Below are positions 3,866 through 59,132 of a stretch of 59,241 nucleotides of DNA, in pieces. The notes beneath the pieces are model-generated. The model did not search any database. It was given only the letters and a program-made list of their open reading frames with translations, and had not been told where the DNA came from. The stretch covers positions 1-59,241 of IMG/VR virus record IMGVR_UViG_3300025098_000044, one strand, 5' to 3'. The first letter of the stretch is position 1; the number at the start of each line of letters is the position of its first letter. This DNA is from a virus. The position numbers were made by a program, and so were the translations under genes.

Positions 3866-6511
<2,646 letters not shown>

Positions 6512-9500: not shown

Positions 9501-12500
9501 CCTTAAAGCTATATTCGAAGGCCAAGATGAGGCTCTAGGACAATTCTTTCCTAACGCAGATGCTAATGTAGCTGGCGTAGAGGCTAGGATGTTAATGCTA
9601 GAAGCGCTCGGTTTTAATCCAAGAGATTTAACACACAACAGAGAAGAGCAATTCAGCAGATCGGGGCCTGATGCGATAGACTTAGACAGTCAAAGAAGCA
9701 CCTTCACAGTCAATATTGCGAACATTAAAAACTGGTCTCAACAGGCTAAGGATTTATATGCCAGACTGCTAGGTTTTGATAACTTTAAATCTCTTCCTAA
9801 TGAGTATAAAAACCCTCGCTATGGTAAAACTCAGGAGGTTATGGAGAAAGGCGGTGTTACCGAAACAACCGCCGATGTCGATCTTTTAGATCCTTCTTTC
9901 CAATCTAAATTTGATCAGGGTAAAGCAACCGAAACTCAGGAGGGTGGCACCGGTTTACGAGAAGCACTGTCTCCCGAAAAGCCCGAAAGCTCAACAACAA
10001 GAGCCGCTAAAGATGCGGCTAAGGTAGCAAGCAAAGCTAGGGTAACTGATGACGAGTTAGAAGAGCTCGGAATGACCCGTAAAGCATACGAAGAGCAAGC
10101 CGCGAAAAACGAGTTAAATCCAGGTAACACAGAGTACGCTAAAGATCTTTTAGAAAGAAGGGGTTTAGCTCCGCCGAGCAAGAAAGAAGTACAAGCCGAG
10201 AAGACCAAGAAATTAGAAGAAACCGCCAAAGAAGGTAAACTTACTAAAGGTGCCGAAAAGGTAATTGCCGATTCTGAAAAAAGCAAAGACAAGGTTAAGC
10301 CCGAAGCTAAGCCCGATCCAGAAGCCGCTGAGAAAGTAAAGAAAGCAAAAGCCAGAAGAGAATCAGCTTCTAAAACAAAAATAGCAATAGGTAAGAATCC
10401 CGAAGAATTAAAGGACACTCCTAAGAAAGAAGAAAGCACCGAAGAGGGGAAGCCCACACCAAGCGGTAAGTTTGACGAAAAGTTCGAAGAAGAGAGTTTA
10501 AAAAAGCTAGATCCACTTATTGAGCCTGCCCCAAAATCGGAAGACCAAGAAGCGAACGAAAAACTTCTCGAAGAAAAGGCGAAGGCTTATAAGGCTAAAA
10601 AAGCCGAAGAAGAAGTCGACGCTAAAACCGAATCTGAGGGATCCGCAAATGACTTCGAACTTAAAGCCAGGGCTAAGCTGGAAGGTCTGTTAAGTAAAAA
10701 CAATGCAGATTTTACTTACGAATATAAAAAAGCATCGAATGCCCTATTAAAAGAAAATAAATACCCAACTGCTTCCAGAATATTCTTTAAGATGTTGTCG
10801 GATATCGCCGGTGACGAGACTGTTCTTATAGATGAAACACCCGCTTTACAGGCCGCTATAAAAGAAGTCATAGGTAGTCCGTTAATAAGGCCAGGCAAAG
10901 AGGCAATTAATAAACTAATTACAATTCTAGAATCAGCGGTAAATGAGGATTTTAATCATTTAGCGAATAAAGAATTAAAAGTAGACGGTGTATTAATGCC
11001 CTTCGGAGTTCACCCTTTAGCAGATGTCGATTACGACAGAATTGAAATGGGTATACCCCGTTTGGCTATGAATTTTAGCACAAAGAATGGAGCTAAAAGA
11101 GACGATGTAAAAGGTGAGACTACGATGGAGTGGATTAAAAACGGTCAAAGAACCGCAACCACAAGAACAGAGGCTCAGGTCAGGGGTGTTAAACAAGGCG
11201 ATATAATTGAGTTTTACGATGGTAAAGAAACCGTATTAGTAAAAGTAACGCACGATCCTTATAGAGTTAATCACGAGACAATTTCCGAGGGTATGTGGAG
11301 TCGTTATGAAGGTTGGCACCAAGACATGTATAAACAAGTCATAAACGCCGATAAACCCAGATTCCAGTTTAGGTATAGACTTTTAAATAAAGAAGAAACT
11401 GAAGCAGCTAGAAAAGCTCCAATAAAATTAGAACTTAAAGAACACATCGGCCAGGAGGGTCAATATGTTAACTTTAGAAGAAGGAGCCAGAAAGCTCATC
11501 AAAGAGACACCTCATCATCTTTATACGCTTATAAAATAGTTAAGAATCGTAAAAGGTATAACGACGAATCAGCTTTTACTTTAGCAGCCGCATTGCAAAG
11601 ACTCATCGGTGAAACTCAAGATATATCAGATTATTTGTACGGTGTTCAAAGCGTAGCTGGTGAGTTTATAGACAAGAAAGATTTAGAATACGACAGCTCC
11701 GTTATAGCCGAAATGGCTGAAGTTTTCGAGTCTCCTCTAAAAGATAAAAACAATCCCGAAGGTACTACTTTAAAGGAAAAACAAGATAAAATTCAGTCAT
11801 TAAATCAAAAATTAACTTCTTTTTCTATACAGTTAGCAAAAGCAGCTTCAGATTGGAAAGAGTCGCACGACCCTAAAAAACCTTCAGAGGTTGCTTATTT
11901 AAAAAGAATGGAGGCAGCTCTTGAAACTCTTAAGAAAGATTACGGGGGGAGTAAAACTGAAAAAGAAGCTAAAGTCAGAATGGCTCAAATAGAGCGAAGT
12001 CTGAAACATATTGAGCTAGCTGAACAAAAATTTCGTAGAGATACTAAAAAAGATCCGTATGAAGTTGAACTAGTTCCTGTAAATAAAGAAGACGCAATAG
12101 AAAACGGTATCAACTGGTTAGATCTACCCGTGGGTTCTTTGCTATCCCGTGATAAGAAAAAAGGTCTTTGGAACCCATTCAGTTTAGATAATGATCTTCA
12201 AACTCTTTTCGGAGGTAAGGTTTACAAAAATAGAAACGGCGAAGTTCAAAGCCAATATATGACCGTACTCGGGGCTATGGTTGGTAAAAAGAAGATGAAA
12301 CTTTCATCCGGTGGTAAATTGGCTCAAGAAGGTAGCCCAAACAGAGAATCAGTCATGATGACCGATTATGTTTCTCTTTCTCAGGAGAACAGACTCGCCG
12401 CCCTCAGAAGAATGTTCGCAAAAGCAAAAGATGGGAAACAGCGTGTAAAACTTAAAAAACAGATTGAAGAGTTACAAAAGAAACAGCGAGAAGCCGACAG

Positions 12501-15500
12501 GGTTGGTTCTTTAAATACTAAATACCCACCTAAGAAAAACGATAACAACGCGCACATGATATCGTGGGAAGATTCTCTTAAAATCTATAACATGATAAAG
12601 CAGAGTTTCGAAACCACCGAAACACCGGCTGGTGCCGCCGTAGCTGCCGCCCAAACAAGATTGAAAGATCTGATGGATAAAGCATTCGAAGACATAGATG
12701 ATCAACGGGGCTTCCACAATACTACTTTAAAATCCGTAAGTCCTCTTGGAGCTTTATTTAAAAAGATCAGAGAACAGACCGAAGCAATAGACACCGATTT
12801 AAAACCACCCGCATTTGGGGACGACATCGGTGATTACATATCCGCCATTATTTCAGACCAACATGAATCACTAGGCTACGAGTATAAACAAAAACTGTAC
12901 CACGATTTCGTAAGAAGGTTGTACGAAGGTGACGCCGCTCAATCAAAGAAATCCTCCGAGCAGTTAGACCGTCTTAAGAACTCTGAGCCTGTCTTCAATA
13001 TGGTTGAGGATGATTCAAAAGAAACCGAGCTAGAAGACCGTAATAAATACGAAACTACGGCTAAAGAAACCGTGTTTTTAGTAGATGAGAAGGGTAGGGG
13101 TTATACAAGGACTAGAGTTATAGCCACCCCCGAACAAACCGATACTATCTGGGAAGATGAAGCTGCTCAAACGGCTATGACTACTGGTCAAGATCCTAAA
13201 GATGTCGGCGGGACTTCAGAAGCTAAATCATGGATATCTAAAAAAGTAGACCGGTTCGCAAAGTACTTCCCATCTTTATTAAAGGTGAGTATAGAAGAGG
13301 CAGAAAATACACCGAAACCTAGAGACGGAACTAAAGAAGATATGTGGTTACACGGGCTTAAACCCGGTAATAAAAAAGTCGGTTATGACTTTGTTGCAAG
13401 GATTCAAGAGTTTATAAGAACAAAATCAAAATCTAAAGTTGATTTAAGAGATGTTACATTTTTAGGTACAATATTAGAAGGTAAGGCTTTCCCCGAGCTT
13501 AACATCAAAGCCGCTTCTCTTTCTCGCGTAAAAGATATGAGACCCTGGCAGGTCCATAACTTATTACCCGTAGTAATCGCTAATATGGTTGAGCGAAATG
13601 GTCTAGATAATATTACCTCATTACCTAGTAAAAATACAATAGGTGAGATTACCGAAGGTGGTCTTGCAGGTGGTTGGATATTTAAATCAGGTATTCTAGG
13701 TGTTGCGGTAAATCACTACGGTGAAGTGTTTAAAGGTACTAATCGTATAGACGCGGGTATCACTGCAAAAGACTTGCTAGAAAGATCCGGAAAACAATTT
13801 GATGACATCGTAGCAAAATACCAGGCTTTAATAAATGATCCAAATGCCGACAATGTTTACGGCAGAAAGAAAGCTCAATCGGACTTAGAAAAATTGTACA
13901 AAATGTTCGGCGGACCGGTTAACCACTCTTTAGGTATGTTTGCCGAGGAGATAAGAAATGGCGAAGCAAGAGAGCGTTACCAAGCAATGTATTTTGCACA
14001 ATGGATAACTAAGAGAGTGGCCGAGATGGGTGGCCTAGAGTCTTCGTTCGGAGCTAAAGTTTTCGAGGATGCTCAAAACCCAGATGTTCTAACAGAAAGC
14101 CAGGAAAGAGACGCATCCGATAAAGCTAATGACGAAAATGATATGACTTCCGCCAGAGATTTAGCGGACGCTATGTCAGGTCTTAATGAAAAGTCAGAAG
14201 CTAAAACTAATGTAACAACATTAGCAGACACCGTATCGGATCCAGCCGAGAAGGTTATGGAGTCCGAAATAAAATCGGGAGCCTGGGAAGATGTTTATTC
14301 CGTAATAACCATGACCAACGAACAGCTTGTCAAAGACCCTCGATTCATGAGGTTGCTCAAAACAGGCGAAGTTACACCGGACATGGTTCGCAGGATGGCA
14401 GAGCTTACATTCGCAGATTCCTTAAATCAGTTAGGAACTGATGCAGAAGTTACGGCGGCATTGGACGCGATAATGGAAGATAACAAAAAGAAGTATGGGA
14501 AACCAACCGCTTTAGGTTCCGATATTTTGCTTGTTTCCGAGATGCCCGCTTTATTTAGCGAAAGATTTTCAGCGGCAACAAGAGCCGCTCTCGCTGGTGG
14601 TTGGAATAAATTACCCGAAGAATGGAAAAACCAGATGGAGAAGATGTGGTATGGGATTCGTGTAAGAATCTACAACCAGCATATTTCTTTAGAAGAGTTG
14701 TCCACACGGCTTAATAAAGAATTAAAACTTGGCTTCGGTGACACCGCCCGAGACTTCTTTGATGTCATGGGTATTATACTGCCAAGCTATGCAAAGGTTA
14801 AGATAGCCTCTCGTGTATTTGACGCTAAGTATAAGAAACCAATTCTTAATATATTAGAAGAGTATGGGGTTTCTGATAAACAGTTTGGTGAGTATGTTCA
14901 GGCGTTATCCGCAGGCGTTAATAATAGACATATCCGCAAACTTCTAAGTGATGAAAGATCTAAGTTAAAAGAAGATCTAAAAGTAGCCGAAGAAAGTTTA
15001 AAAAACGAAGAAAACAAAGATTATAAAAGTAAAAAAGAATCGGATATAAAAAAGCTCAAAGAGGAAATTGAACACTACGACGAAAGTAACTACAACAATG
15101 CAAATGGTGAGTTTGCAGCTTCGGGATACAGCAATGCAGAAGCTATTGTTCAGATAGAAAAATCATTAAGAGATCCACAGCTTAAAAAAGCGTTAGCTGA
15201 TAAAAGAAATCTAATGGGCTTGTTCCAGCAGATGAATGCATCAACTATCATAACAGCATGGCAGACTGGTCAAATTACACAGGAAGCTATGTTTAAAATG
15301 CTAGCCACTAAATCTCGTGCATCTTCAGCCGACAAACTCGTCGACACGATATTTGACATGCTTGCTCTCAATCCCGAAACGGGGGCTCCATTTAACAGAG
15401 AAGACTTTAAGGACGATATAGAAATTATAAAAAAGACTTGGGCTTCCAAATCTTGGGATCAGCAAAGAACAGAGGAAGGTGATGCAATACCCGACGGTTA

Positions 15501-17994
15501 TTACTACGCACCTATGCTTGGATTTGCCGACAACGAAATGCATTTCAAAGAAGAAGAATCTTTAGCTCAACTTACAGGAATGGGAAGTGGTTCAGGATCG
15601 GGTGGATGGAATGCTAGCCCATCTAAAAAACCCGTAGGCCCGTATAGTCAAGGCCGTAGAGGTATAAGCAGGCCCGATCCAAGATCCGCACTCTCTCATT
15701 CATTTTTAAAACATGACGAAATTGTTATGCGTGGTGCTAAACAAGAGCCCGGCAAAAGAGTAAGAGAGTGGTACGAATTGTTTCTCGAAATGAAGCAAAA
15801 CGAAAAAGCTATTCGTGAGCAGAAGCCAGTCGAATGGTCCGAAAACTTTCAGGGTATTATAGAGAACTATAATATGAAAGGTATATTTACCAACCCTTCA
15901 AAAACATCCGTTATATTTAATCAGTTCGATTCAATATTTGAATCTGTGCAAGAGCATCCCGATGGTAAGATGCCCACACAAAATAGAATCGTAGTAGAGC
16001 CTGTCGAGAGGGGTGGTAAACGGTTCGTATCACTTAGGAGAAAGGATGTGAGTCTTAGGACGACGGACAAAGGAATGTTTTTCGTAAAGAAAGAAGGTGA
16101 ATTAGAATTTGTAAAATTCAGACAGGATATTGGCGGTGTAAAAGGAGCTAGAATTTTCAATGAGCTTACCAACAACCAAGTAAATAAACTTCTCGGAGTA
16201 GACTTACAGAATAATTTAGTTCTAAGAACTATTAATTGGGGTACTAGAATGTTGGCTCAAGCATACACATCTTATAACCCCGATTTCATACTTACCAACC
16301 TTGTTAGGGATATGACTACGGCTACCCTAAACTTAGGGGAAGATGATAAAAAACGGATTACTAAAGCCTATACAAAACAGTTTAAAAAATTTCCATCGTA
16401 TATAAATAAAATACGAAAAGCCGAAGCCGCTCTTGATGAAGGTACCCGTTCTTTAAAGTTTAAAAACATGTCCGCAGAAGAGGCTGTTAAAAACATAGCT
16501 GACGATGACATAGCTCAATGGTTCCAGTTCTTTGAAGCTCACGGCATGAGGACTTCTTTTACGAAGCAAGAAAAGCAAACCGAGATGATGTCGGCGTTGC
16601 AGGATGCGATAGGTGATAAGAAGTTTCCAAAAGTTGAAAAAGTAAAAAATATTATAAATAACAAAGGCGTTCGTGGTTTTGTGGATTTTGTTGAAAACGC
16701 CAATGTGGGTGTTGAAAATGTATCCCGTGTTGTTGTAGCAAAAGAAATGCTTAAAAGTGGTAAATTTACCTTACAACAATCCGTAATGGCTGGTAGAAAT
16801 ATATCGGTGGATTTTAACAAAAAGGGTACTTGGAGCTCTGGGATAGGTTCTTTAATGCTGTTCTTTAATGCCGGTGTTCAGGGTAATATCAGATTTGTTA
16901 AATCCGTATTTAGCCACGGTAGTGGTAGAGCACAAAAACTAGCCGTAAGTATTATAGGTGCATCCATACTCCATTCAATGCTTCAAAGAATGTTGTCCGC
17001 CGAGGAGGATGATGAGGAAAACAATCATTATAATAACTTAGGTAGTTACATAAGAAACAACAATTTAGTTATATTCACAGGAGATAAAAAGCACATAACA
17101 ATCCCTCTTCCTTGGGGGTATAATATATTCTGGTCTATCGGTCAGAGAATTGCCCACGCTATGGCGGGAGGTAATATTATCGACGAAGGTGCGGGGATTG
17201 TAAATGATGTGCATAACACTTTAAATCCTTTAGCTGGTGGTATAACCCCCGGTGTCTTTGCTCCAATATCCGCCGTAATAGATAACGAAACCTTTTATGG
17301 AGCTCCATTAACTAAACCTAAAAGAGATTTTGATGTAGAAAAGCCACCAGCTTTTAGAGAGGTAAAAGGAACAAAGCAGGCTTTTATCGACATCTCCCGA
17401 GCTATGAATTCCTTTTTCGGTGGGGACTCGGTAAAACCGGCCACATTAAAAGGTTTGTTTACCGATGAAATACCCGAAGGTGATTTTGACATTAATTTAG
17501 CAATGTCAGGAAGTGCATTGGAACATCTATTCGAAGGCTACACCGGTGGGCCTGGAGCGTTCTTAAGTAGAATACTTTCGGGTGCCGCTTCTCTGGTGGA
17601 TGACGAGCCTATAGATATGAATTGGAATGAGGTTCCCGTAACCCGCCGTTTCTTTAAGGGTGACTATTCCAACTTCGCCATATCAAAAAGATTCTATAAC
17701 TTGAGAGACCGAGTACTAAAAGCGGATACCTATGTTAGAAATCTAAAAAACGGGGTTAGAATCGACGAGGCTAAACAAGGTATGAAGAACAATAAAGAAC
17801 TTCTTAGTATAAAAGCATCACTCGACGGAGCCGAATCACGGAGAAAAGATCTTCAAAGAATGTTAGATAAACTAGAACAATCTAATATACCACCCGCTGA
17901 GAAGAAGTTAAAAAGAGAAAAGTTAGAAAAGCAACGGGTAGACGCTTGGAAGAAAGTTTTATATAAAGCTAAACAGCGGGGCATCGATGTATAA
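6517..17994 (+). CDS. Giant large polyvalent protein (ejection/internal virion type)
   Basis: A 3825-residue protein occupying about a fifth of the window. A Gly/Ala-rich hydrophobic segment (residues ~548-600) is followed by EYVGEFLGELDKEGVDWRNP, a pattern of phage internal large proteins. A zinc protease motif HELGH is at 883-887. A 300-residue charged, probably coiled region (~1150-1450) precedes an ASCH-like domain (~1510-1630; RTATTRTEAQVRGVKQGDII). The C-terminal part (~3240-3550) resembles the LPD38 region, with YNPDFILTNLVRDM and FFNAGVQGNIRFVK. Position just before the portal and these domains suggest a packaged protein delivered with DNA. No phage N4 RNA-polymerase motifs were seen. 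Confidence 0.85.
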   Translation: MGALDDLDLGKDQYQPEKEQDDLGFKNYQRPLRPQPLHGEIQRYEDPVPQELPQQQRQAYKDIQTFENDLKTLSDGVKRYKSISETKEQALNDFYSTKFSPYFDESYAEDFNVVGGETFKSSDFSTTKFDQVDKAFDAIGRDYADIEARVAEGDTKWFGDDTAFLRAQQKLKGKKRFELIKAKHDRMRKDYDHAFRAHENSVARKKGMTDAFTSLPLGMREAANKWKEENPGKNLSADSINKLLDSTKFEDPKYSPMGLLLNQDKVDPRTNLVMHKGNREEEQHQKLQGRRLAAVKKEGKAALARDIKTFDQETKLRDRGLMYSVLGRLANHSIYLSKAEKEALHIDKLKKDGFNQYKGVDIASAQEALGGEDRVIAAKAIENFGEAFTSLQEAEVNYAKNKESKGISKAKEIRDLAQLNYDEAVKSVTQLGFSKELLKRGRSKSYFGHLRDSATRGSLLDDASEFAFALDGWQEFGTDKASELISIMEQMESLEGSHAFKKFGMAESEGLLEAFGNLFSNFEAIPELITETIVGFGSSYFDAERLGATVGVGAGTGLAIGSAGFNPLTAGGGAATGALWGARINAGLASFVMEYVGEFLGELDKEGVDWRNPNVLVAAVNNPALMDKVREKARTKSGTVAFFDLVAAGIAGRTNRLVKKPSAMKKLPKGIKAFRQELDGAAHASWFRNLAAGGAELAVQGSLGGMGEGFGQLLTLDPGEEIDWDAIAAEIGIEMVGPGGIGLGINSISAKSRGLFGDFGMEDISGASETVINQGNTETEYGRLEQVDRAGWKHERRRFNTSEGFMQALQEVEGFDPNSASGWLISRIAGFAYGMEKRNLGLVISDRTPFRNSKTRGAYQDGVVYVNTKALKDGASTNLVLLHELGHFMQDMFFSDPASVENLYNSHHAGNDEVQTAENKLLSWAQYVLGKRVTDLSELSPSELKMAKDKFQNTPDNVIRAEWFTTQFGLALAQESGLASSDKLSKEIKVATKNFLKAIFEGQDEALGQFFPNADANVAGVEARMLMLEALGFNPRDLTHNREEQFSRSGPDAIDLDSQRSTFTVNIANIKNWSQQAKDLYARLLGFDNFKSLPNEYKNPRYGKTQEVMEKGGVTETTADVDLLDPSFQSKFDQGKATETQEGGTGLREALSPEKPESSTTRAAKDAAKVASKARVTDDELEELGMTRKAYEEQAAKNELNPGNTEYAKDLLERRGLAPPSKKEVQAEKTKKLEETAKEGKLTKGAEKVIADSEKSKDKVKPEAKPDPEAAEKVKKAKARRESASKTKIAIGKNPEELKDTPKKEESTEEGKPTPSGKFDEKFEEESLKKLDPLIEPAPKSEDQEANEKLLEEKAKAYKAKKAEEEVDAKTESEGSANDFELKARAKLEGLLSKNNADFTYEYKKASNALLKENKYPTASRIFFKMLSDIAGDETVLIDETPALQAAIKEVIGSPLIRPGKEAINKLITILESAVNEDFNHLANKELKVDGVLMPFGVHPLADVDYDRIEMGIPRLAMNFSTKNGAKRDDVKGETTMEWIKNGQRTATTRTEAQVRGVKQGDIIEFYDGKETVLVKVTHDPYRVNHETISEGMWSRYEGWHQDMYKQVINADKPRFQFRYRLLNKEETEAARKAPIKLELKEHIGQEGQYVNFRRRSQKAHQRDTSSSLYAYKIVKNRKRYNDESAFTLAAALQRLIGETQDISDYLYGVQSVAGEFIDKKDLEYDSSVIAEMAEVFESPLKDKNNPEGTTLKEKQDKIQSLNQKLTSFSIQLAKAASDWKESHDPKKPSEVAYLKRMEAALETLKKDYGGSKTEKEAKVRMAQIERSLKHIELAEQKFRRDTKKDPYEVELVPVNKEDAIENGINWLDLPVGSLLSRDKKKGLWNPFSLDNDLQTLFGGKVYKNRNGEVQSQYMTVLGAMVGKKKMKLSSGGKLAQEGSPNRESVMMTDYVSLSQENRLAALRRMFAKAKDGKQRVKLKKQIEELQKKQREADRVGSLNTKYPPKKNDNNAHMISWEDSLKIYNMIKQSFETTETPAGAAVAAAQTRLKDLMDKAFEDIDDQRGFHNTTLKSVSPLGALFKKIREQTEAIDTDLKPPAFGDDIGDYISAIISDQHESLGYEYKQKLYHDFVRRLYEGDAAQSKKSSEQLDRLKNSEPVFNMVEDDSKETELEDRNKYETTAKETVFLVDEKGRGYTRTRVIATPEQTDTIWEDEAAQTAMTTGQDPKDVGGTSEAKSWISKKVDRFAKYFPSLLKVSIEEAENTPKPRDGTKEDMWLHGLKPGNKKVGYDFVARIQEFIRTKSKSKVDLRDVTFLGTILEGKAFPELNIKAASLSRVKDMRPWQVHNLLPVVIANMVERNGLDNITSLPSKNTIGEITEGGLAGGWIFKSGILGVAVNHYGEVFKGTNRIDAGITAKDLLERSGKQFDDIVAKYQALINDPNADNVYGRKKAQSDLEKLYKMFGGPVNHSLGMFAEEIRNGEARERYQAMYFAQWITKRVAEMGGLESSFGAKVFEDAQNPDVLTESQERDASDKANDENDMTSARDLADAMSGLNEKSEAKTNVTTLADTVSDPAEKVMESEIKSGAWEDVYSVITMTNEQLVKDPRFMRLLKTGEVTPDMVRRMAELTFADSLNQLGTDAEVTAALDAIMEDNKKKYGKPTALGSDILLVSEMPALFSERFSAATRAALAGGWNKLPEEWKNQMEKMWYGIRVRIYNQHISLEELSTRLNKELKLGFGDTARDFFDVMGIILPSYAKVKIASRVFDAKYKKPILNILEEYGVSDKQFGEYVQALSAGVNNRHIRKLLSDERSKLKEDLKVAEESLKNEENKDYKSKKESDIKKLKEEIEHYDESNYNNANGEFAASGYSNAEAIVQIEKSLRDPQLKKALADKRNLMGLFQQMNASTIITAWQTGQITQEAMFKMLATKSRASSADKLVDTIFDMLALNPETGAPFNREDFKDDIEIIKKTWASKSWDQQRTEEGDAIPDGYYYAPMLGFADNEMHFKEEESLAQLTGMGSGSGSGGWNASPSKKPVGPYSQGRRGISRPDPRSALSHSFLKHDEIVMRGAKQEPGKRVREWYELFLEMKQNEKAIREQKPVEWSENFQGIIENYNMKGIFTNPSKTSVIFNQFDSIFESVQEHPDGKMPTQNRIVVEPVERGGKRFVSLRRKDVSLRTTDKGMFFVKKEGELEFVKFRQDIGGVKGARIFNELTNNQVNKLLGVDLQNNLVLRTINWGTRMLAQAYTSYNPDFILTNLVRDMTTATLNLGEDDKKRITKAYTKQFKKFPSYINKIRKAEAALDEGTRSLKFKNMSAEEAVKNIADDDIAQWFQFFEAHGMRTSFTKQEKQTEMMSALQDAIGDKKFPKVEKVKNIINNKGVRGFVDFVENANVGVENVSRVVVAKEMLKSGKFTLQQSVMAGRNISVDFNKKGTWSSGIGSLMLFFNAGVQGNIRFVKSVFSHGSGRAQKLAVSIIGASILHSMLQRMLSAEEDDEENNHYNNLGSYIRNNNLVIFTGDKKHITIPLPWGYNIFWSIGQRIAHAMAGGNIIDEGAGIVNDVHNTLNPLAGGITPGVFAPISAVIDNETFYGAPLTKPKRDFDVEKPPAFREVKGTKQAFIDISRAMNSFFGGDSVKPATLKGLFTDEIPEGDFDINLAMSGSALEHLFEGYTGGPGAFLSRILSGAASLVDDEPIDMNWNEVPVTRRFFKGDYSNFAISKRFYNLRDRVLKADTYVRNLKNGVRIDEAKQGMKNNKELLSIKASLDGAESRRKDLQRMLDKLEQSNIPPAEKKLKREKLEKQRVDAWKKVLYKAKQRGIDV

Positions 17995-45248: not shown

Positions 45249-45590
45249 ATGGCAAATGTACTATTAAATTGGACAGCTCCCGCGGATACATCTAATATCA
45301 CGGGCATCGTAATCTTAAAAAAATCCGTATCAGCGGGCTCATCCGTTCCATCATGTGGCGATTTTATTCCAGATGAAAAAATTAGAGGTGCCAACACGGC
45401 AGCCGACTTAACGGATAGCACTGTTTCTCAAGTAGGCTCGGATATTACCGACCCGGCTACTGTCGCGGCAAATGGTTCCGTTACTGAAACTGGTGTAACG
45501 GCTGGGAGCTACTATTACGCAGCATTTTCTTACAACGCGGCGGGATATTCCCCTTGCGATGTGACGAATTCCGAGCTTGTAATTTCTTAA
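45249..45590 (+). CDS. Fibronectin type III-like single-domain protein
   Basis: A 112-residue-class protein (113 codons) with an Fn3-like outline: VLLNWTAPADTSNITGIVIL at the start, YYYAAFSYNAAGYSPCDVTN near the end. It is the last gene of the rightward late block. Its stop overlaps the integrase stop on the other strand by 4 bp. It resembles the Fn3-like starts of the proteins at 23490 and 42977, so these may be alternative decoration modules of one set. Confidence 0.65.
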   Translation: MANVLLNWTAPADTSNITGIVILKKSVSAGSSVPSCGDFIPDEKIRGANTAADLTDSTVSQVGSDITDPATVAANGSVTETGVTAGSYYYAAFSYNAAGYSPCDVTNSELVIS

Positions 45591-46741
45591 GCTACCCACA
45601 ATGCCAGCATATCTTTGCTTGGCATTAATTTGGCGTAGTATTTTGAAGTAACTTGAGGGCTTGTGTGTCTTAGATAACTCTGGGCTACATACAAGCCCTT
45701 AGTTGTTGCTAGATAAGATCCGTATAGCTTTCTTAACTCGTGCAAAGGGCTTTGTCGTGTCCAGCCGATATCTCTTAAAGAGTCAGTGACAACTTTCATC
45801 GTTTTTTCGGCAGTCCTAGCACGATCCGTTACAAGATAATCAAACCCCTCTGATTTATCTAAAATCTTTGAACCCCACGCGGCACTACCTGCCGTGTAAC
45901 CATCCATACCTCCTTTCGGTTTAAACTTACCTTCGGATTTAATACAGATAGCACAGCGATCGTCGTCAATATCTAACCAGTTCCGCTTAGCAAAAAAGAT
46001 CTCTTTCCGCCTCATACCAAAATGCAAGGCTAAAGCCATGATTACAAAATGATCACCGTCCACTTCATTCATTAATTTAAAAGTATCTTCGATTAACGAT
46101 GTCTCCGGTAATGTATAATCCTTCTTAACTCGGTTGAAAAATATCTCTTTCTTTAGGTAACTAAGACCTTCAAAACTCCAGCTCTCAGGATAATATGCCA
46201 TAGCGGTCTCGGAAAATACCGATTTAGCATTTCTAAGAAGAGTATTATATGATCTTTTCTTCTCACCTAGGGTAACTAAATCTTTAATACCCTCGACCCT
46301 ACGCTTTTTTTCTTCACGAAGCATCTTCTTAGTCAACTTCTTTAAAGGCAGTCCCATCGCTTCTTCGTCCGATAAACCTGTGACTCTATATAAACCTCTA
46401 CGATAACACTGAACCGTACGATCGCTTATACCGACTAAATTTTTATTTTCCTTAAGCATGTCGACAATCAACCCTAAGGTCGGCTGTATTCGGTCGTCGG
46501 GCTTAGGTGTTGGAGCGGGTTTACCTTGTTGTTTTTGTGGTGAATATTTTAATAAGGTTTCGGACACCGTATTAAAAACTAAGTAGGCATCGATCTCATC
46601 AGCCATCTCTTTAGCAATGTTTAAATCTTTTCCTAAATTAAAATACAGAGTTTTTTTATCTCTAACTATTCTGTAAGTCCAGTTTTTAGAACTTTGATTT
46701 CTTTTATATACGCGATTACCGCGTTTCGTTGTATACTTCAT
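45587..46741 (-). CDS. int: Tyrosine recombinase / integrase
   Basis: A 384-residue protein from ATG 46741, chosen because a good AAAAAAGG Shine-Dalgarno lies just upstream; an extended frame to 46804 lacks one. Catalytic residues of the tyrosine recombinase family are all visible: R244 in GMRRKE, H334 and R337 in HELRKLYGS, H359 in YLRHTSPQVTS and a Tyr in SKYYA (368/369). The N-terminal ~60 residues form a small basic domain fitting an arm-binding domain. It would integrate the phage at the attP-like block 115 bp upstream, making the phage temperate. Confidence 0.92.
   Translation of the reverse strand: MKYTTKRGNRVYKRNQSSKNWTYRIVRDKKTLYFNLGKDLNIAKEMADEIDAYLVFNTVSETLLKYSPQKQQGKPAPTPKPDDRIQPTLGLIVDMLKENKNLVGISDRTVQCYRRGLYRVTGLSDEEAMGLPLKKLTKKMLREEKKRRVEGIKDLVTLGEKKRSYNTLLRNAKSVFSETAMAYYPESWSFEGLSYLKKEIFFNRVKKDYTLPETSLIEDTFKLMNEVDGDHFVIMALALHFGMRRKEIFFAKRNWLDIDDDRCAICIKSEGKFKPKGGMDGYTAGSAAWGSKILDKSEGFDYLVTDRARTAEKTMKVVTDSLRDIGWTRQSPLHELRKLYGSYLATTKGLYVAQSYLRHTSPQVTSKYYAKLMPSKDMLALWVA
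45600..45626 (+). terminator. Hairpin at convergent late/int ends
   Basis: A perfect 7-bp stem (AATGCCA with TGGCATT) and a 13-nt loop, ten bases past the last late-gene stop and inside the 3' end of the integrase gene. It is followed by AATTT rather than a true T run, so it is at best a weak terminator for the late transcript. Confidence 0.3.
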
Positions 46742-46783
46742 GTTGTACCTTTTTTTGACCCTTTTATGTTGATGTTTAAACAC

Positions 46784-46847
46784 CACATATTGTGTAAGTG
46801 TCATTTAAAAGCCAGTAGTGGTGCGGATAACTACCACATGTTGTGGT
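46784..46847. promoter_or_regulatory. Two matching dyads upstream of integrase
   Basis: CACATATTGTG at 46784-46794 and ACCACATGTTGTGGT at 46833-46847 are perfect inverted repeats. Both fit the consensus CACAA(C/T)ATGTGG on the reverse strand. Their centres are 51 bp apart, close to five helical turns, so one face of the DNA is presented. They lie between the integrase start and the tRNA-Tyr block. They could be integrase/excisionase arm sites or repressor operators controlling int. Confidence 0.65.
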
Positions 46848-46857
46848 TTTTGCTAAA

Positions 46858-46897
46858 ATTTACAGTCCGCATCCTTTAGCCACTTGGATACCCTACC
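46858..46897 (-). other. Candidate attP: 5' half of tRNA-Tyr(GUA)
   Basis: Read on the reverse strand from 46897, the sequence has every landmark of the first 39-40 nt of a bacterial tRNA-Tyr. It has an acceptor strand GGTAGGG, a D arm with TCC/GGA pairing and GTGG loop, the anticodon stem 5' strand GCGGA, and the anticodon loop CTGTAAA with GTA. Spacing equals that of E. coli tRNA-Tyr as I know it. Pairing stops just after the loop and no T arm follows, so it is not a tRNA gene. Placement beside int makes it the probable attachment core. Confidence 0.8.
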
Positions 46898-46969: not shown

Positions 46970-47218
46970 ATGGATTGGTTAAAAAATAGTGGAGAATTAG
47001 AAAAGCCTTTAATTAAAACGATTGGTGAAAGTGTAGAAGCTCTTGTGGATGAGTTGATACCTGAGCTGAAACTTGCCGCCTATGAAAATGATTCTACGGC
47101 TAATGTCGAGTGTAAAATAAATGTGACATTTAAAGACGACACTTTTGAAGTAGAAACCATTGGTCAAGTCGAGTTCCCGGCTAGGATAATAAAAATCAAC
47201 GCGGTAGAAGATGCTTGA
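46970..47218 (+). CDS. Small hypothetical protein, early/lysogeny region
   Basis: An 82-residue protein directly behind the TTGACA promoter. The N-terminal half is an amphipathic acidic helix; the C-terminal half is a beta segment (VECKINVTFKDDTFEVETIG). No family is recognised. No SD motif is seen before the ATG. It overlaps the following HTH gene by 8 nt, so the pair should be co-expressed, perhaps during establishment of lysogeny or early infection. Confidence 0.55.
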   Translation: MDWLKNSGELEKPLIKTIGESVEALVDELIPELKLAAYENDSTANVECKINVTFKDDTFEVETIGQVEFPARIIKINAVEDA

Positions 47219-47519
47219 AGAGCTCGGCTTAACTAAAGATTTTGTTCAAAACTCATTTGGGGTTCTACCCAATGAAGTAAAGGTAGAGGAAAAAAATTAC
47301 CTTGATGTCGAAGATCAGAAACGAATTCGAAGGAGACTTAAGCAATATTCTAATTTTATTATAGCAAGATTTGAGCAAGGTTATGCTCCTTGTATAATCG
47401 CACAATTGCTAGGAGTGTCCGAAGAGTCTATCAGGTCGAGACTTAGGAAGGCGGGTTTGTTTAATTCAGAAGGACCTGGTCGTCCGAAGAAAAACCGAAG
47501 TATTTCCAACGGTCTCTAA
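47211..47519 (+). CDS. Helix-turn-helix DNA-binding protein
   Basis: A 102-residue protein with a clear HTH segment (APCIIAQLLGVSEESIRSRL, residues ~65-84), of sigma4/LuxR-like or Trp-repressor-like type. A basic tail containing GPGRPKKNR follows, an AT-hook-like GRP core. It is the second gene of the rightward pair next to int and attP. A regulator of the integration/early switch is a reasonable guess. Its last 59 nt overlap the convergent nuclease gene. Confidence 0.6.
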   Translation: MLEELGLTKDFVQNSFGVLPNEVKVEEKNYLDVEDQKRIRRRLKQYSNFIIARFEQGYAPCIIAQLLGVSEESIRSRLRKAGLFNSEGPGRPKKNRSISNGL

Positions 47520-55061: not shown

Positions 55062-56411
55062 TTATACAAAAATTGGATTAAGTTCGTCATCGTTTATTAA
55101 ATCTAAATGGTTAAGTTTCTTTTTAACGGCTGCACAGACACGCATCTCAATGCTTCCGGCTGCAAATATTATTTTCTGAATGGCGGGACTCTTGGAGCCT
55201 GCTCTGTGAATTCTACCCAAGGTCTGTCTAAGCTCAATCGCACTGAAACCTGGACTTATTAATGAGACTCTTGGATGATTGCCATGAGTGTCATGTAAGC
55301 TGATACCAACACCGCCCGCTTGAATCATACAAATAATAATCCTAGCCTCGTCCCGCTGAAATCTGTTTATATGCACTTCCCTTACATCGTCCGCCTGACC
55401 ACCCTCTATTATGGAAACCATACAAAGGTCGCTGATACGCTGGGCGATGGCCTCAAGAGTGGCTTTGAAATTTACAAATATAGCAACACTACTTCCCTCA
55501 GCATAAGCATCATGAGCCAGCTCTACAAAAGTTGGTACCTTCATTAGCTCAATCTGCTGACGAGCCCTTAGCTGAACGGTTAATGGATTCTCATCCTCAT
55601 CCTGATCAACCTTTTCCTGTAAAGCCTCAAGCTCTGCCGCCATGTTGTGGTAAATAGAATCTATATCCTCATCCAAACTATAACCATCGGGGATAATTAA
55701 ATTTTCGGGAAAAGTCCCCTTGGGCAAATCCGCAATCCGGATACGGGAACCATACCCCTCATAGATATGTTTATGAAATCTCTTTAGCACCGGCTTAGGG
55801 TTTCGGAACTCTAGGGAGAAGCGGCCTTTCTTACACCCATTTTTCTGACACCAGTTCCACCAGTCCTTACCGCTATGCATGTCGAGGGCATAACCCATCG
55901 CCCGCATCTCCAACGGATTTGAGCAACTAGTGGCTCCGAGTAGGAGTATCCGAAACCCTAAGGCTTTGGCACTAATGAGTATCTTAGAATTTAGAGACTT
56001 ATGCCCTTTCATCCTATGATCCTCATCAAAAATAATTAACATCTTATCGGGATCCAATGTCTTCCACCGAAAGAATCCACGCTTGGGTATCCAACCCCAA
56101 TCAGTCTTACCACCACGCAACTTCTCATAATTAATTACATAGTTTATATTCTGATTAAAATTTAACATCCATTCCTGCCACGCGGGAATAACACTCTTCG
56201 GGCAAACAACAAAAGGTTCAAGCCCAAGTCGCCTCGCAACTTCCATCGCAATCACAGTCTTCCCGGTCCCGGTATCACTACCATCCTTAGCCACACCATG
56301 TGCCTTAATACTTTGAGTAAGATTATCGCAATGATCCTTCTGCCAATCGTAAAGCTCAGGAACAAGCTTGTTCTTAGTACTCTGCCTAATCATACCTTCT
56401 ATAGTGCTCAA
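55062..56411 (-). CDS. SNF2-like superfamily 2 DNA helicase/ATPase
   Basis: A 449-residue SF2 helicase. Motif I is SDTGTGKT (residues 45-52), motif II LIIFDEDH (~132-139), motif III LLLGATSC, and the C-terminal lobe ends with motif VI QTLGRIHRAG (~394). A DEDH rather than DEAH Walker B is normal for SNF2-like phage enzymes. The start is TTG 56411, supported by GAGGAG eight bases upstream and a TTGA overlap with the sigma4-like gene. It probably remodels replication or recombination intermediates. Confidence 0.8.
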   Translation of the reverse strand: MSTIEGMIRQSTKNKLVPELYDWQKDHCDNLTQSIKAHGVAKDGSDTGTGKTVIAMEVARRLGLEPFVVCPKSVIPAWQEWMLNFNQNINYVINYEKLRGGKTDWGWIPKRGFFRWKTLDPDKMLIIFDEDHRMKGHKSLNSKILISAKALGFRILLLGATSCSNPLEMRAMGYALDMHSGKDWWNWCQKNGCKKGRFSLEFRNPKPVLKRFHKHIYEGYGSRIRIADLPKGTFPENLIIPDGYSLDEDIDSIYHNMAAELEALQEKVDQDEDENPLTVQLRARQQIELMKVPTFVELAHDAYAEGSSVAIFVNFKATLEAIAQRISDLCMVSIIEGGQADDVREVHINRFQRDEARIIICMIQAGGVGISLHDTHGNHPRVSLISPGFSAIELRQTLGRIHRAGSKSPAIQKIIFAAGSIEMRVCAAVKKKLNHLDLINDDELNPIFV

Positions 56412-56584
56412 TATTGAAACTCCTCTAAATCTATTTTGTCGTCTTTTGCTATCTTGTGCATCTTACACCTTAACTTTCTAATCGCTACTTCCTCGATCTG
56501 ACGAATCCGCTCACGACTAACACCAACAAAGTCAGCTATCTCCTGCAATGTATGAGGATTCCCCGGCTTAGCTTCCATTACCAT
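56408..56584 (-). CDS. Sigma-70 region 4-like protein
   Basis: From ATG 56584 this encodes 58 residues dominated by a region 4 HTH: HTLQEIADFVGVSRERIRQI then EEVAIRKLR. The open frame extends to GTG 56842, but that N-terminal part overlaps the zinc-ribbon gene, is Ser/Lys low-complexity and has no SD, so the short start is preferred. There is no region 2, so it cannot be a full sigma factor. It may compete with or recruit host sigma at -35 elements, or act as an independent activator. Confidence 0.6.
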   Translation of the reverse strand: MVMEAKPGNPHTLQEIADFVGVSRERIRQIEEVAIRKLRCKMHKIAKDDKIDLEEFQY

Positions 56585-56600
56585 TTGTCTTAGCTTGATA

Positions 56601-56858
56601 TCAACCAGCGTTAACTTCTTCGCGGACTTCTGCTTCGAGTGAATGTTGATCGATTCCGAGGGCTTTTTCGAAGACTTGGGTCTTTTTTCTAAGCGTTTTG
56701 TTTTCGAGGATGAGGTTGTGGATGAAGTCTCCCTCGATTTCGCGGGTCGTGAACCGATGGCCGCAAGTAAAACAGCTACGGCGTCTTCTCCAACTAGCCC
56801 CAGGTCCTTGGCGAGAGTCTTTGACGGATGTTCTTTTCTCACACTTAGGACACTTCAT
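56601..56858 (-). CDS. NrdR-like zinc-ribbon protein
   Basis: An 85-residue protein whose first 40 residues match the NrdR zinc ribbon: C3/C6 in MKCPKC, VKDSRQG, RRRRSC (C29), TCGHRFTTRE (C32). NrdR normally continues with an ATP-cone and represses ribonucleotide reductase genes. Here a short coiled-coil-like tail replaces it, so this is a stand-alone DNA-binding ribbon. It overlaps the upstream coiled-coil gene by 14 nt and is followed 16 nt later by the sigma4-like start. Confidence 0.7.
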   Translation of the reverse strand: MKCPKCEKRTSVKDSRQGPGASWRRRRSCFTCGHRFTTREIEGDFIHNLILENKTLRKKTQVFEKALGIDQHSLEAEVREEVNAG

Positions 56859-57042
56859 GGGATACTAGAGACTTCGACTTCCTCAATCGCTCGGAAAAAG
56901 CTAAAGCCGCATTCTTGGCAACAGCCTCACGCTCCTTTAACTTTTTCTCCAAAGTTGCGACTCGATCGACTAGGCCATCAAGGGTGTGCTCCATTATATT
57001 AAGCTGATTTTCTATTCTATTTAGATCTATATTTAATGTCAT
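56845..57042 (-). CDS. Small coiled-coil protein
   Basis: A 65-residue protein with a clear heptad pattern (LDGLVDRVATLEKKLKEREA) and a basic C-terminal third. Its 3' end overlaps the zinc-ribbon gene by 14 nt, giving a three-gene cluster (coiled coil, zinc ribbon, sigma4-like) upstream of the helicase. A TTGACA hexamer lies about 30 bp upstream on the reverse strand. Function unknown. Confidence 0.55.
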   Translation of the reverse strand: MTLNIDLNRIENQLNIMEHTLDGLVDRVATLEKKLKEREAVAKNAALAFSERLRKSKSLVSHEVS

Positions 57043-57131
57043 TCCTTCATCGTATGCATTTGTTATACATTGTCAAATAAATTATAAAAAAAATATACGG
57101 AAGGTCGAAAAACCGGTGTTCAACAAAGGTT

Positions 57132-57429: not shown

Positions 57430-57870
57430 TCAATTATGTTTTACGGTTTTAGCATAATTTAATACTAACAAAGCATCACATGTAGCATTTGTAATACCTT
57501 TCAATGCGGGATACATACGAATCGCATTATCCTTTAAAATCCTTTTCCTTTGAGCGTAACTCAATTTGGGACGGATCCCCGACAAACCCTTCTGCCATTT
57601 CTTAGGCGATACGAGCTCCACCGGAAAGGCAAAAGCCCGGCAAGCACCCATTATAAATCCAAAGTTATAACCTAGCTTAAAAGAAGAAGAATTACTTGTT
57701 GCAGAGCTAACAAATACGGGAACATCTTCCACAAATATGCGAGTCTTGCGGTCAAAATTTTCTATGATTTTCAGATAATCAGATTCAGTTGTAAATTTAT
57801 CAAGGTAGATATCCTCACCATCGTAGTAAGCAACACCACCACCCTTCCCTGGATCAAATGCAGCTATCAT
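57430..57870 (-). CDS. RuvC-like Holliday junction resolvase
   Basis: A 146-residue protein of the RuvC/RNase H-fold resolvase group. D6 is in AAFDPGKGGG, E48 in IFVEDVP, SPKKWQKGL is in the middle, and D132 in ATCDALLVLNYA. These match the acidic catalytic set of phage and poxvirus RuvC-like enzymes, which cut four-way junctions before packaging. AGGG precedes the ATG, which overlaps the RHH gene stop (ATGA). Confidence 0.75.
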   Translation of the reverse strand: MIAAFDPGKGGGVAYYDGEDIYLDKFTTESDYLKIIENFDRKTRIFVEDVPVFVSSATSNSSSFKLGYNFGFIMGACRAFAFPVELVSPKKWQKGLSGIRPKLSYAQRKRILKDNAIRMYPALKGITNATCDALLVLNYAKTVKHN

Positions 57871-58049
57871 TTCCCTATGATCTCTAGCTGACGCTCGAGC
57901 TTCTTATTACGCTCCCGTCGCTCCAACTCCCTACGAATAGCCTCTCTAGCTATCTGAGAACGCGTTGTCCCAGCATCCTCTGCCTCTTTAGAGAGCTTGC
58001 CGTCCGTATCGTCGTCAAGACGAATGTTGAGTTGTGTTACCCATCTCAT
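57867..58049 (-). CDS. Ribbon-helix-helix regulator (leftward)
   Basis: A 60-residue protein from ATG 58049, the start that leaves a clean RHH: VTQLNIRLDDDTDGKLSKEA (ribbon and first helix), TTRSQIAREAIRRELERRER (second helix), then a basic helical tail. The open frame runs further upstream, but that part is hydrophobic, non-conserved-looking and crosses the regulatory region. RHH proteins of the Arc/CopG type bind operator dyads as dimers. It diverges from a second RHH gene across a 129-bp region holding a dyad. Confidence 0.75.
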   Translation of the reverse strand: MRWVTQLNIRLDDDTDGKLSKEAEDAGTTRSQIAREAIRRELERRERNKKLERQLEIIGK

Positions 58050-58093
58050 AGGCCATAGTATCATTGGTCGTCGGTCGTAGGGCAAAGAAAAGT

Positions 58094-58121
58094 TTGATAA
58101 ACACAATATTTTGTATATCAA
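58094..58121. promoter_or_regulatory. 28-bp operator-like dyad
   Basis: TTGATA at 58094-58099 pairs with TATCAA at 58116-58121 around a central AATATT. 24 of 28 positions are symmetrical. It is centred between the divergent RHH genes and ends 3 bp before the rightward -35. Its arms and length suit binding by RHH dimers or tetramers. Confidence 0.75.
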
Positions 58122-58124
58122 TAG

Positions 58125-58152
58125 TTGACATATGTATAAACTATGGTGTAAA
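58125..58152 (+). promoter_or_regulatory. Rightward promoter of RHH gene
   Basis: A perfect -35 TTGACA at 58125-58130, a 16-bp spacer and TGTAAA at 58147-58152 as a weak -10. It lies 26 bp before ATG 58178. The adjoining dyad suggests repression by one or both RHH proteins. Confidence 0.6.
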
Positions 58153-58177
58153 AGATGATACAAAAGGAAAAATATAT

Positions 58178-58471
58178 ATGAAAAAGACAATTAATTCAAA
58201 GGACGAGACGGCCGCTAAGGATATTACCTGTGCGGTTCGATTCAACCACAGCATGTATGAGCGCTTGAAAGAGACTGCTCATGACATGAACCTTTCCTTG
58301 TCCGATGTTATTCGGCAAGCGTTAGTAGACTACATGGAATCACACAGCAAATCATTACTGGAGAAAAAACTCGAGGAAATCGAGTTAAGAAAGAAAGTCA
58401 CTGAAGCGACGGCTAATGAAGATCAAAGTCTAAGAGACACTTTATTAGAATTGCTTAATAAGGCAAGCTAG
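58178..58471 (+). CDS. Ribbon-helix-helix regulator (rightward)
   Basis: A 97-residue protein from ATG 58178, chosen for the AAAGGAAAAA leader at SD distance; upstream in-frame codons cross the promoter. The RHH core is DITCAVRFNHSMYERLKETA and LSLSDVIRQALVDYMESHSK, followed by a ~35-residue charged helix that may oligomerise. Together with the divergent RHH gene it has the layout of a two-repressor immunity region such as Arc/Mnt. It is the only gene reading toward the AT-rich repeat region. Confidence 0.75.
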   Translation: MKKTINSKDETAAKDITCAVRFNHSMYERLKETAHDMNLSLSDVIRQALVDYMESHSKSLLEKKLEEIELRKKVTEATANEDQSLRDTLLELLNKAS

Positions 58472-58859
58472 CAGTAGAATAAGTCAGAAAGGTGGCTTGG
58501 CGGCTTAACCAACGCGCTGTTGGAGGCAATTTCTTTGAATTATTGCGAATTATGGTTTAAAATGAAGAGTTTATGGTTTCTTAAAAAAAAACCATATTTC
58601 ATAAGTCGTTGATAATTCCTTATCTTATATTCCTATTTATTATTATATTGTTTATATATATATATTAATAGTAAAAGAAGAGAAGAGAAGAAAAAGAGGG
58701 TAGGATAAAAAGAAGATAAGAGGGATATAGAAGAGAGACTAAGAAAACAAAACCATAAAACCATATTTCTCCCTTAAATCGTTGCTTGACAACATGTTAG
58801 TTTCCAAATGGTTTCCATGGTTTTAAAAAAAACCATAAAGTCGATGTGGTGCGCTGGAT
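58472..58859. other. AT-rich iteron-like region, candidate replication origin
   Basis: No gene was found. Exact AAACCATA occurs at 58589, 58750, 58758 and 58830, and its complement TATGGTTT at 58551 and 58572. The copies at 58750 and 58758 are head-to-tail. One-mismatch copies lie near 58807 and 58816. Between them are an almost pure A/T stretch (about 58630-58670), suited to strand opening, and a long polypurine tract (about 58672-58750). A CCAAC/GTTGG hairpin at 58509-58523 may end the RHH transcript. Repeats plus an AT-rich element is the layout of an origin. Confidence 0.6.
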
Positions 58860-59132
58860 TTAACCCTTTTTTCGCTTAAAACTTCTATTCTTAGATTTAC
58901 TAACCGCTCTTAAGTTTTTCCTACTATTATCGGCCGTATTTCTATTTTTGTGGTCGACATCCTTGCCATCACCCTTGCGTACAACACCCGCTTTCGTCAT
59001 CTTGCGCCTTGCGGCGTTTCTTTGGGCCCTCCTCTTCTTCTGTCGAGGCTTCTTATGGTACTTGTCGTACTCGGATCTGTAGTTCCTTTTAGCAGGCTTC
59101 CTGCGCTTCGGTGCTTTTTTTCTTACTGGCAT
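58860..59132 (-). CDS. Small basic HNH-like protein
   Basis: A 90-residue, extremely basic protein. The first ~45 residues are Lys/Arg-rich. The C-terminal half has GKDVDHKNRNTADNSRKNLR then SKSKNRSFKRK, the D-H-x-N...N-x-x-N-L pattern of phage HNH-like small proteins often found near packaging genes. No zinc-ribbon cysteines are present, so catalytic activity is uncertain. If the genome is circularly closed, it would lie about 640 bp from the packaging genes at 534. Confidence 0.65.
   Translation of the reverse strand: MPVRKKAPKRRKPAKRNYRSEYDKYHKKPRQKKRRAQRNAARRKMTKAGVVRKGDGKDVDHKNRNTADNSRKNLRAVSKSKNRSFKRKKG

Follow-up and report, generated by a model that had tools for sequence, protein, structure and literature searches.

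Two small genes, RHH1 and RHH2, are transcribed away from each other in a virus record of 59,241 bases (G000; the whole of this stretch of DNA is referred to here as the window). Both encode ribbon-helix-helix (RHH) proteins, and the gap between them contains a 28-bp symmetric dyad and candidate promoters for both genes (Table 1). RHH1 is the first gene of a leftward early operon, and its stop codon overlaps the ATG of a RuvC-like gene that adjoins RHH1 in relatives as well. The mechanically listed open reading frames with TTG starts run too far upstream; the frame listed for RHH2, at 58064, begins too early.

Table 1. Positions of the genes, repeats and candidate signals discussed in the text (window coordinates).
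Feature	Position	Strand	Description
RHH1	57867–58049	minus	60 aa, RHH, Arc-sized; recognition strand Q6-x-N8-x-R10
RHH2	58178–58471	plus	97 aa, RHH with C-terminal helical extension (Mnt-like build); strand T-C-A-V-R
RuvC-like Holliday junction resolvase	57430–57870	minus	phrog_1770, 1.4e-18; second gene of the leftward operon
Dyad TTGATAAACACAATATTTTGTATATCAA	58094–58121		28 bp, 12/14 pairs (24/28 symmetric)
Dyad half-site TTGATAAACA	58094–58103	plus
Dyad half-site TTGATATACA	58112–58121	minus
Third, weaker half-site TTGACATATG	58125–58134	plus	Overlaps TTGACA; G002 version TTGACAAACA
Candidate RHH2 promoter	58125–58152	plus	TTGACA (58125–58130), 16 bp, TGTAAA as a weak −10; predicted from sequence
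Candidate RHH1 leftward promoter	58055–58085	minus	TTGCCC (58085–58080), 19 bp, TACTAT (58060–58055); directly upstream of the ATG; predicted
Second-site word TTGTTATACA	57060–57069	plus	Upstream of early gene 56845–57042 (minus); same place in G002
Tyrosine integrase	45587–46804	minus	phrog_1, 9.6e-16; motif residues R, HxxR, RH, Y
attP-like core GGTAGGGTATCCAAGTGGCTAAAGGATGCGGACTGTAAAT	46858–46897	minus	40 nt matching nt 1–40 of tRNA-Tyr(GTA); between integrase and ORF82
ORF82	46970–47218		Upstream of the small HTH gene
Small HTH protein	47211–47519	plus	Beside the integrase; weak sigma-r4/HTH_23 matches

Fold assignment of RHH1 and RHH2

RHH1 matches the Pfam RHH_1 model well above its cut-off (E=1.5e-8; 34.7 bits, cut-off 20.5), which places it in the RHH superfamily. 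RHH2 falls just under the same cut-off (E=0.001, 19.2 bits). Against RHH chains of the ORF56/CopG type, RHH2 gives E=2.9e-5 with a two-row profile and 5.6e-6 with a 13-row profile, the closest solved chain being the plasmid protein ORF56 (2k9i, E 5.6e-6), and it also matches Arc-like (E 2.1e-5) and CopG-like PHROGs. The ORF56 chain, the Arc-like PHROGs and a match to the RHH1 profile establish that RHH2 is a member of the superfamily. An earlier reading of the sequence alone (the sequence-only reading) had proposed two divergent RHH regulators, which these matches bear out. It had also called the two unrelated-looking, which does not hold, since the RHH1 and RHH2 families match each other in profile-profile comparison (hhalign probability 95%).

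Structure prediction, proposed in the same reading for both proteins, gave a clear answer for RHH1 and a weaker one for RHH2. The AlphaFold model of RHH1 (pLDDT 82.7) matches RHH chains with Z up to 7.3 (VIA; rmsd 1.1 over 57 residues) and Arc entries with Z of 5.4–5.9. The model of RHH2 (pLDDT 75, best Z 4.8) has a disordered start (residues 1–19 below 50) and a long C-terminal helical part. RNase H rows returned by the solved-structure search of A9 have only a two-helix stretch in common and were taken as chance.

The closest structural matches of the RHH1 model are antitoxins and PutA, and RHH2 resembles the copy-control protein ORF56, as would be expected if RHH1 or RHH2 were an antitoxin, a copy-control protein or a partition protein. 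Such likenesses reflect the RHH superfamily in general, however. Neither gene adjoins a toxin or partition ATPase gene, the neighbors being the resolvase and HNH genes, and the phage has an integrase and attP rather than plasmid maintenance. We consider a role of this type highly improbable.

Half-sites and candidate promoters between the genes

The sequence-only reading had drawn attention to the 24/28 dyad, and its symmetry stands out against shuffled sequence. Dinucleotide shuffles of the RHH1–RHH2 gap reached at most 22/28, none of 2000 attaining 24/28, and when dyad lengths between 16 and 40 were all allowed, none in 100 shuffles of the gap was as improbable. The 59-kb window has a single further 28-mer with 24/28 symmetry. 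The half-site, TTGAYAWACA, occurs twice in the window, both times within the dyad. The dyad could be a chance or structural feature lying between two independent neighbors; the full dyad is found in this species only, and the region is AT-rich. The shuffles argue otherwise, as does G002, a relative at ~70% nucleotide identity with the same divergent RHH pair, which keeps a half-site and TTGACA in a diverged gap; the pair also stays together throughout the clade described below. We judge a chance origin very unlikely.

The comparison with G002 bears on the form of the candidate operator. The middle half-site and TTGACA are identical in the two phages, the far half-site has decayed in G002, and the TTGACA-side half-site is better there (TTGACAAACA); the full 28-bp dyad is specific to the phage of the window. 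Because G002 keeps only the TTGACA-adjacent and TTGACA-side half-sites, the candidate operator is more aptly viewed as several half-sites than as a single fixed dyad.

A TTGACA promoter beside the dyad had been proposed as well, and half of this claim stands. TTGACA lies 3 bp off the dyad, but a good −10 element is absent downstream of it, and the consensus scan omits the candidate RHH2 promoter. G002 keeps TTGACA, there with an 18-bp spacer to TATTTT. The G002 counterpart of the candidate RHH1 promoter, TTGCCA-18-TACCAT, is listed by the consensus scan, and other relatives have TTGxxx-17/18-TATAAM at this position, with the −10 located 6–7 nt before the ATG. The short distance from −10 to ATG in several relatives would possibly make the RHH1 message leaderless.

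Sites of this kind are concentrated in intergenic regions. Exact matches to TTGWTAWACA in the 59 kb are confined to the two dyad half-sites and the site at 57060, and other members of the clade have a related word, TTGTTATACA, close to both gene starts. With up to one mismatch, TTGWTAWACA has 18 sites in 12 independent intergenic regions, compared with 3.0 (maximum 8) in shuffles; with the window and G002 removed the count is 13 vs 2.4 and is reached in 0/200 shuffles. The density is 10 per kb in the intergenic regions vs 0.6 per kb in the background. The early thirds of G014, G010 and G009 have 7, 7 and 4 copies of the core TGTTATACA, respectively, and the remainder of each genome has one. 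The dyad half-site TTGATAWACA, taken alone, is weakly enriched on the other relatives (4 vs 1.0, reached in 5/200 shuffles). This distribution is suggestive of an early regulon and falls short of proof, because the TTGWTATACA word resembles and overlaps likely −10 boxes (TATAAC/TATACA); part of the enrichment may be promoter signal. The exact pattern ATTTTGTATATCAATNGTTGACA retrieved one extra contig (L006), where it is a chance match within coding sequence.

Conservation of the divergent pair

The RHH2 alignment contains 12 further contigs at 38–51% identity, in which an RHH1 gene is divergent from RHH2. A helicase-based search of viral contigs, from which 80 loci were kept, gave the order HNH - RHH2 / RHH1 - RuvC - helicase in 16 different viral contigs. 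Residues Q6, N8 and R10 of RHH1, the Arc base-contact pattern QxNxR, are invariant in 14/14 homologues, and T17–R21 of RHH2 (TCAVR) are invariant in 13/13; the remainder of the two proteins drops to ~30% identity. The invariance of these strands suggests that both proteins keep their DNA specificity. At one locus (L071) RHH2 has drifted (strand TMSLRL), yet an RHH gene still fills the divergent slot. Neither tblastn of RHH1 and RHH2 nor megablast of the window gave a match among cultured phages.

In the helicase tree, the RHH pair and its integrase family fall within a single clade (support 99/97), made up of uncultured, mostly marine phages that appear to integrate at tRNA genes. Among the phages sampled outside this clade the pair is absent, and an integrase was either not found or is of a different type; some of these phages have weak HTH_3 matches a few hundred bases from their other-type integrase.

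Several other features were observed in these genomes. Some relatives carry a third RHH gene across the HNH gene (L055 3986–4216; L025 1480–1668); none is present in the window or in G003, a 99.9% identical contig that extends 8.9 kb beyond the right end of the window. The interval from the end of RHH2 to the HNH gene (58471–58860) is a conserved noncoding element, a candidate replication origin or RNA, in which ATATGGTTTTATGGTTTT ... AAAACCATAAAACCATATT form inverted clusters that flank an AT- or purine-rich tract; ATCAACGACTTATGAAA is frequently present. The word AACCATA/TATGGTT occurs at 12.9 per kb in the element vs 0.1 per kb elsewhere. The element is also present in L012, L044, L047, L054–L056, L058, L059 and L064; L060 and L067 lack it. 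In the part of G003 that lies to the right of the window (L019 1553–4724), a rightward early block has 707- and 327-aa ORFs that by eye look rIIA- and rIIB-type. Elsewhere in the window, an 881-aa ORF without a PHROG match (3866–6511) is followed by a 3825-aa ORF (6517–17994) that adjoins the portal gene.

Integrase and probable attachment site

The tyrosine integrase sits at the far end of the leftward gene block, and its motif residues are kept in relatives (alignment A7). An integrase-profile survey detected the same family wherever a contig with the full pair extends into the int region (G000/G003, G002, G007, G009, G010, G014, G024 and G026, with G021 at its contig end); G008 and G016 end near the helicase, short of this region. 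The Pfam Phage_integrase model misses this family at its cut-off, so a negative result with it was not taken as evidence of absence.

The attP-like core GGTAGGGTATCCAAGTGGCTAAAGGATGCGGACTGTAAAT is identical in G002 and has 2–3 mismatches to tRNA-Tyr(GTA) genes (two bacterial genomes, phylum of a Verrucomicrobia MAG). Rfam did not recognize the half tRNAs, which were identified by matching whole tRNA-Tyr genes. G007, G009, G010, G014 and G022 have GCCCGGATGGCGGAATTGGTAGACGCGC(C/T)GGATTCAAAAT at the attP position, which we take to be the 5' half of tRNA-Leu(CAA). A 5' half of tRNA-Tyr or tRNA-Leu adjoins int in 6/6 relatives read, and we infer that these halves are attP cores. The attachment tRNA has apparently switched within the clade, with a tRNA-Tyr 5' half in the window and a tRNA-Leu 5' half in relatives. 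The phage carries both an integrase and an attP, and with a tRNA 5' half beside int lysogeny is therefore very plausible.

A search of bacterial genomes with RHH2 found none, and no pair-carrying lysogen was present among 84,980 genomes. The helicase search of bacterial genomes returned only three short MAG contigs, all without the pair. The helicase relatives L040–L042, short contigs from two Verrucomicrobia MAGs and one bacterial MAG, give a hint of the host group.

Search for a CI-like repressor and the HTH gene beside int

The sequence-only reading had noted no obvious CI-like repressor in the window, and profile searches agree. No HTH_3 or CI-like repressor was found in the window or in G003, including the 8.9 kb beyond the right end, the sole HTH_3 signal in the window being a weak match to a sigma-region-4 ORF (E 0.009). 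HTH_3 searches of G009, G010, G014 and G026 returned nothing at E 0.001.

Two of the leftward reading frames overlap: an NrdR-like zinc-ribbon ORF (56601–56858, minus, Pfam 2.8e-12) and a sigma-region-4-only ORF (56408–56842, minus, Pfam 2.8e-11) share ~240 bp on the same strand in different frames. The same overlap is present in L003 (4693–5010 / 4754–5188) and L004 (7474–7668 / 7490–7942).

ORF82 and the small HTH gene (46970–47519) are divergent from int and stay beside it across the clade; they could encode an excisionase or regulator. The HTH gene raises an alternative to an RHH-based switch, namely that the RHH pair merely times early lytic transcription, with autorepression of the leftward operon and moderation of the small rightward unit, and that another protein, most plausibly this HTH protein, holds lysogeny. 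The gene is kept beside int in eight relatives (G002, G007, G009, G010, G014, G022, G027 and G028), its product has HTH_23/sigma-r4-like matches, and G027 (L069) lacks RHH2 while carrying int, RHH1 and the HTH gene, all of which favor this alternative. However, a CI-like effector domain is missing from the HTH protein, and its gene is far from the early promoter region.

A 68-kb genome nested in the clade, G004, provides a further comparison. No integrase was found in G004 by the integrase profile, Pfam or tblastn. G004 also lacks RHH2 but retains RHH1, ORF82 and the HTH gene (51% identity). Loss of the integrase was thus accompanied by loss of RHH2 but not of the HTH gene, whose presence is uncoupled from lysogeny in this genome. 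The pattern points to RHH2 as the regulator on the lysogeny side. The co-loss is a single event, G004 being the only sampled genome of the clade that lost the integrase, and G027 is the opposite case; in G028, a close relative of G027, the RHH2 position is occupied by a diverged RHH gene. We regard maintenance of lysogeny by the HTH protein as possible and, on balance, unlikely.

Discussion

In the best-studied phages HTH repressors hold lysogeny, and RHH proteins are known from the secondary immunity region of P22 and from the archaeal virus SSV1. The reading of the present locus that we consider most likely, at about even odds, is that two RHH regulators replace the CI/Cro HTH pair and together form the primary switch between lysis and lysogeny in a temperate phage. 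Our confidence falls somewhat short of even for the broader proposal that a large, uncultured, mostly marine, tRNA-integrating clade uses an all-RHH primary immunity switch with no HTH repressor, RHH2 alone giving lysogeny and immunity at early-promoter half-sites.

A mechanism can be outlined for the proposed switch. RHH1, the Arc-like protein, would head the leftward early operon, whose genes for the resolvase, sigma-like factor, helicase and DNA polymerase lead in the direction of the integrase. Transcribed the opposite way, the Mnt-like RHH2 could make tetramers through its C-terminal helix. Dimers of RHH1, RHH2 or both would occupy the intergenic half-sites, and the assignment of each protein to particular sites is tentative. 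Bound at the dyad, RHH2 would presumably repress the leftward early promoter and thereby hold lysogeny; beside or over its own −35, RHH2 would hold its own level. RHH1, which would be produced once early transcription starts, would take the part of Cro or Arc, first turning RHH2 off and afterwards lowering expression of its own operon. This scheme starts from features observed directly (both genes, the dyad, the clade-wide pair with its conserved recognition strands, the integrase, attP and the co-loss), and from these we infer half-site occupancy, the signs of regulation and immunity.

The RHH pair seems to be all that stands in for CI/Cro in a whole clade with integrases and tRNA attachment sites. 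If so, lifestyle predictors keyed to CI-like genes would miss such temperate phages, and the two invariant strands with their short half-sites would make up a small two-component switch that is directly testable. In the non-subscription literature covered, no paper dealt with this clade or described a primary RHH/RHH phage switch.

Comparison with known systems

The locus is like the CI/Cro region of phage lambda, where divergent regulators share operators beside an early promoter. The lambda regulators differ in being HTH proteins, and CI has a cleavable C-terminal domain; neither was found here by the HTH_3 searches. CopG and ORF56, the closest solved sequences to RHH2, differ in being single autoregulators of plasmid replication, with no divergent RHH partner and no integrase context.

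SSV1 F55, a small RHH protein that maintains lysogeny and binds early promoters and its own (PMC5569661), is a precedent for an RHH lysogeny repressor. It differs from the present locus in that a single regulator acts, on tandem repeats ATAGATAG at archaeal promoters, and no divergent second RHH gene has been described.

The immI region of P22 resembles this locus in having two divergent RHH genes that encode proteins of comparable length (mnt, minus strand, 83 aa, compared with 97 aa for RHH2; arc, plus strand, 53 aa, compared with 60 aa for RHH1). The Arc and Mnt operators of P22 lie in a short gap of 90 bp, and the candidate operators here in one of about 128–130 bp. The Arc/Mnt-like layout claimed in the sequence-only reading, in preference to a CI/Cro one, thus agrees with the annotated P22 record, and no CI/Cro HTH pair was found. 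The Q-N-R strand of Arc aligns with RHH1 (hhalign 83%, E 9e-6). RHH2 homologues match phrog_795, the P22 Mnt family, weakly in 11/13 members (best 7.5e-4), and the RHH2 profile against Mnt alone is not significant (probability 0.6%). In P22, Mnt represses arc and ant, and Arc represses mnt (PMC11016777).

The layout, the gene sizes and the phrog_795 matches would also fit an accessory immunity region in the strict immI sense, in which RHH2 and RHH1 control an antirepressor acting on an unrecognized primary repressor. In P22, immI ranks second to the c2/cro region and governs an antirepressor, whereas RHH1 here heads a replication/early operon, and neither an antirepressor nor a C2-like repressor was seen. 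In the position of ant, downstream of the arc equivalent, is the RuvC-like resolvase, in relatives likewise; a primary CI-like repressor was not found in the pair phages searched, and conservation of the pair is far above the need of an accessory module. An accessory region of this kind therefore appears improbable to us, and we favor a primary switch: the locus would work like immI without being immI, as the RHH1 operon is not that of an antirepressor.
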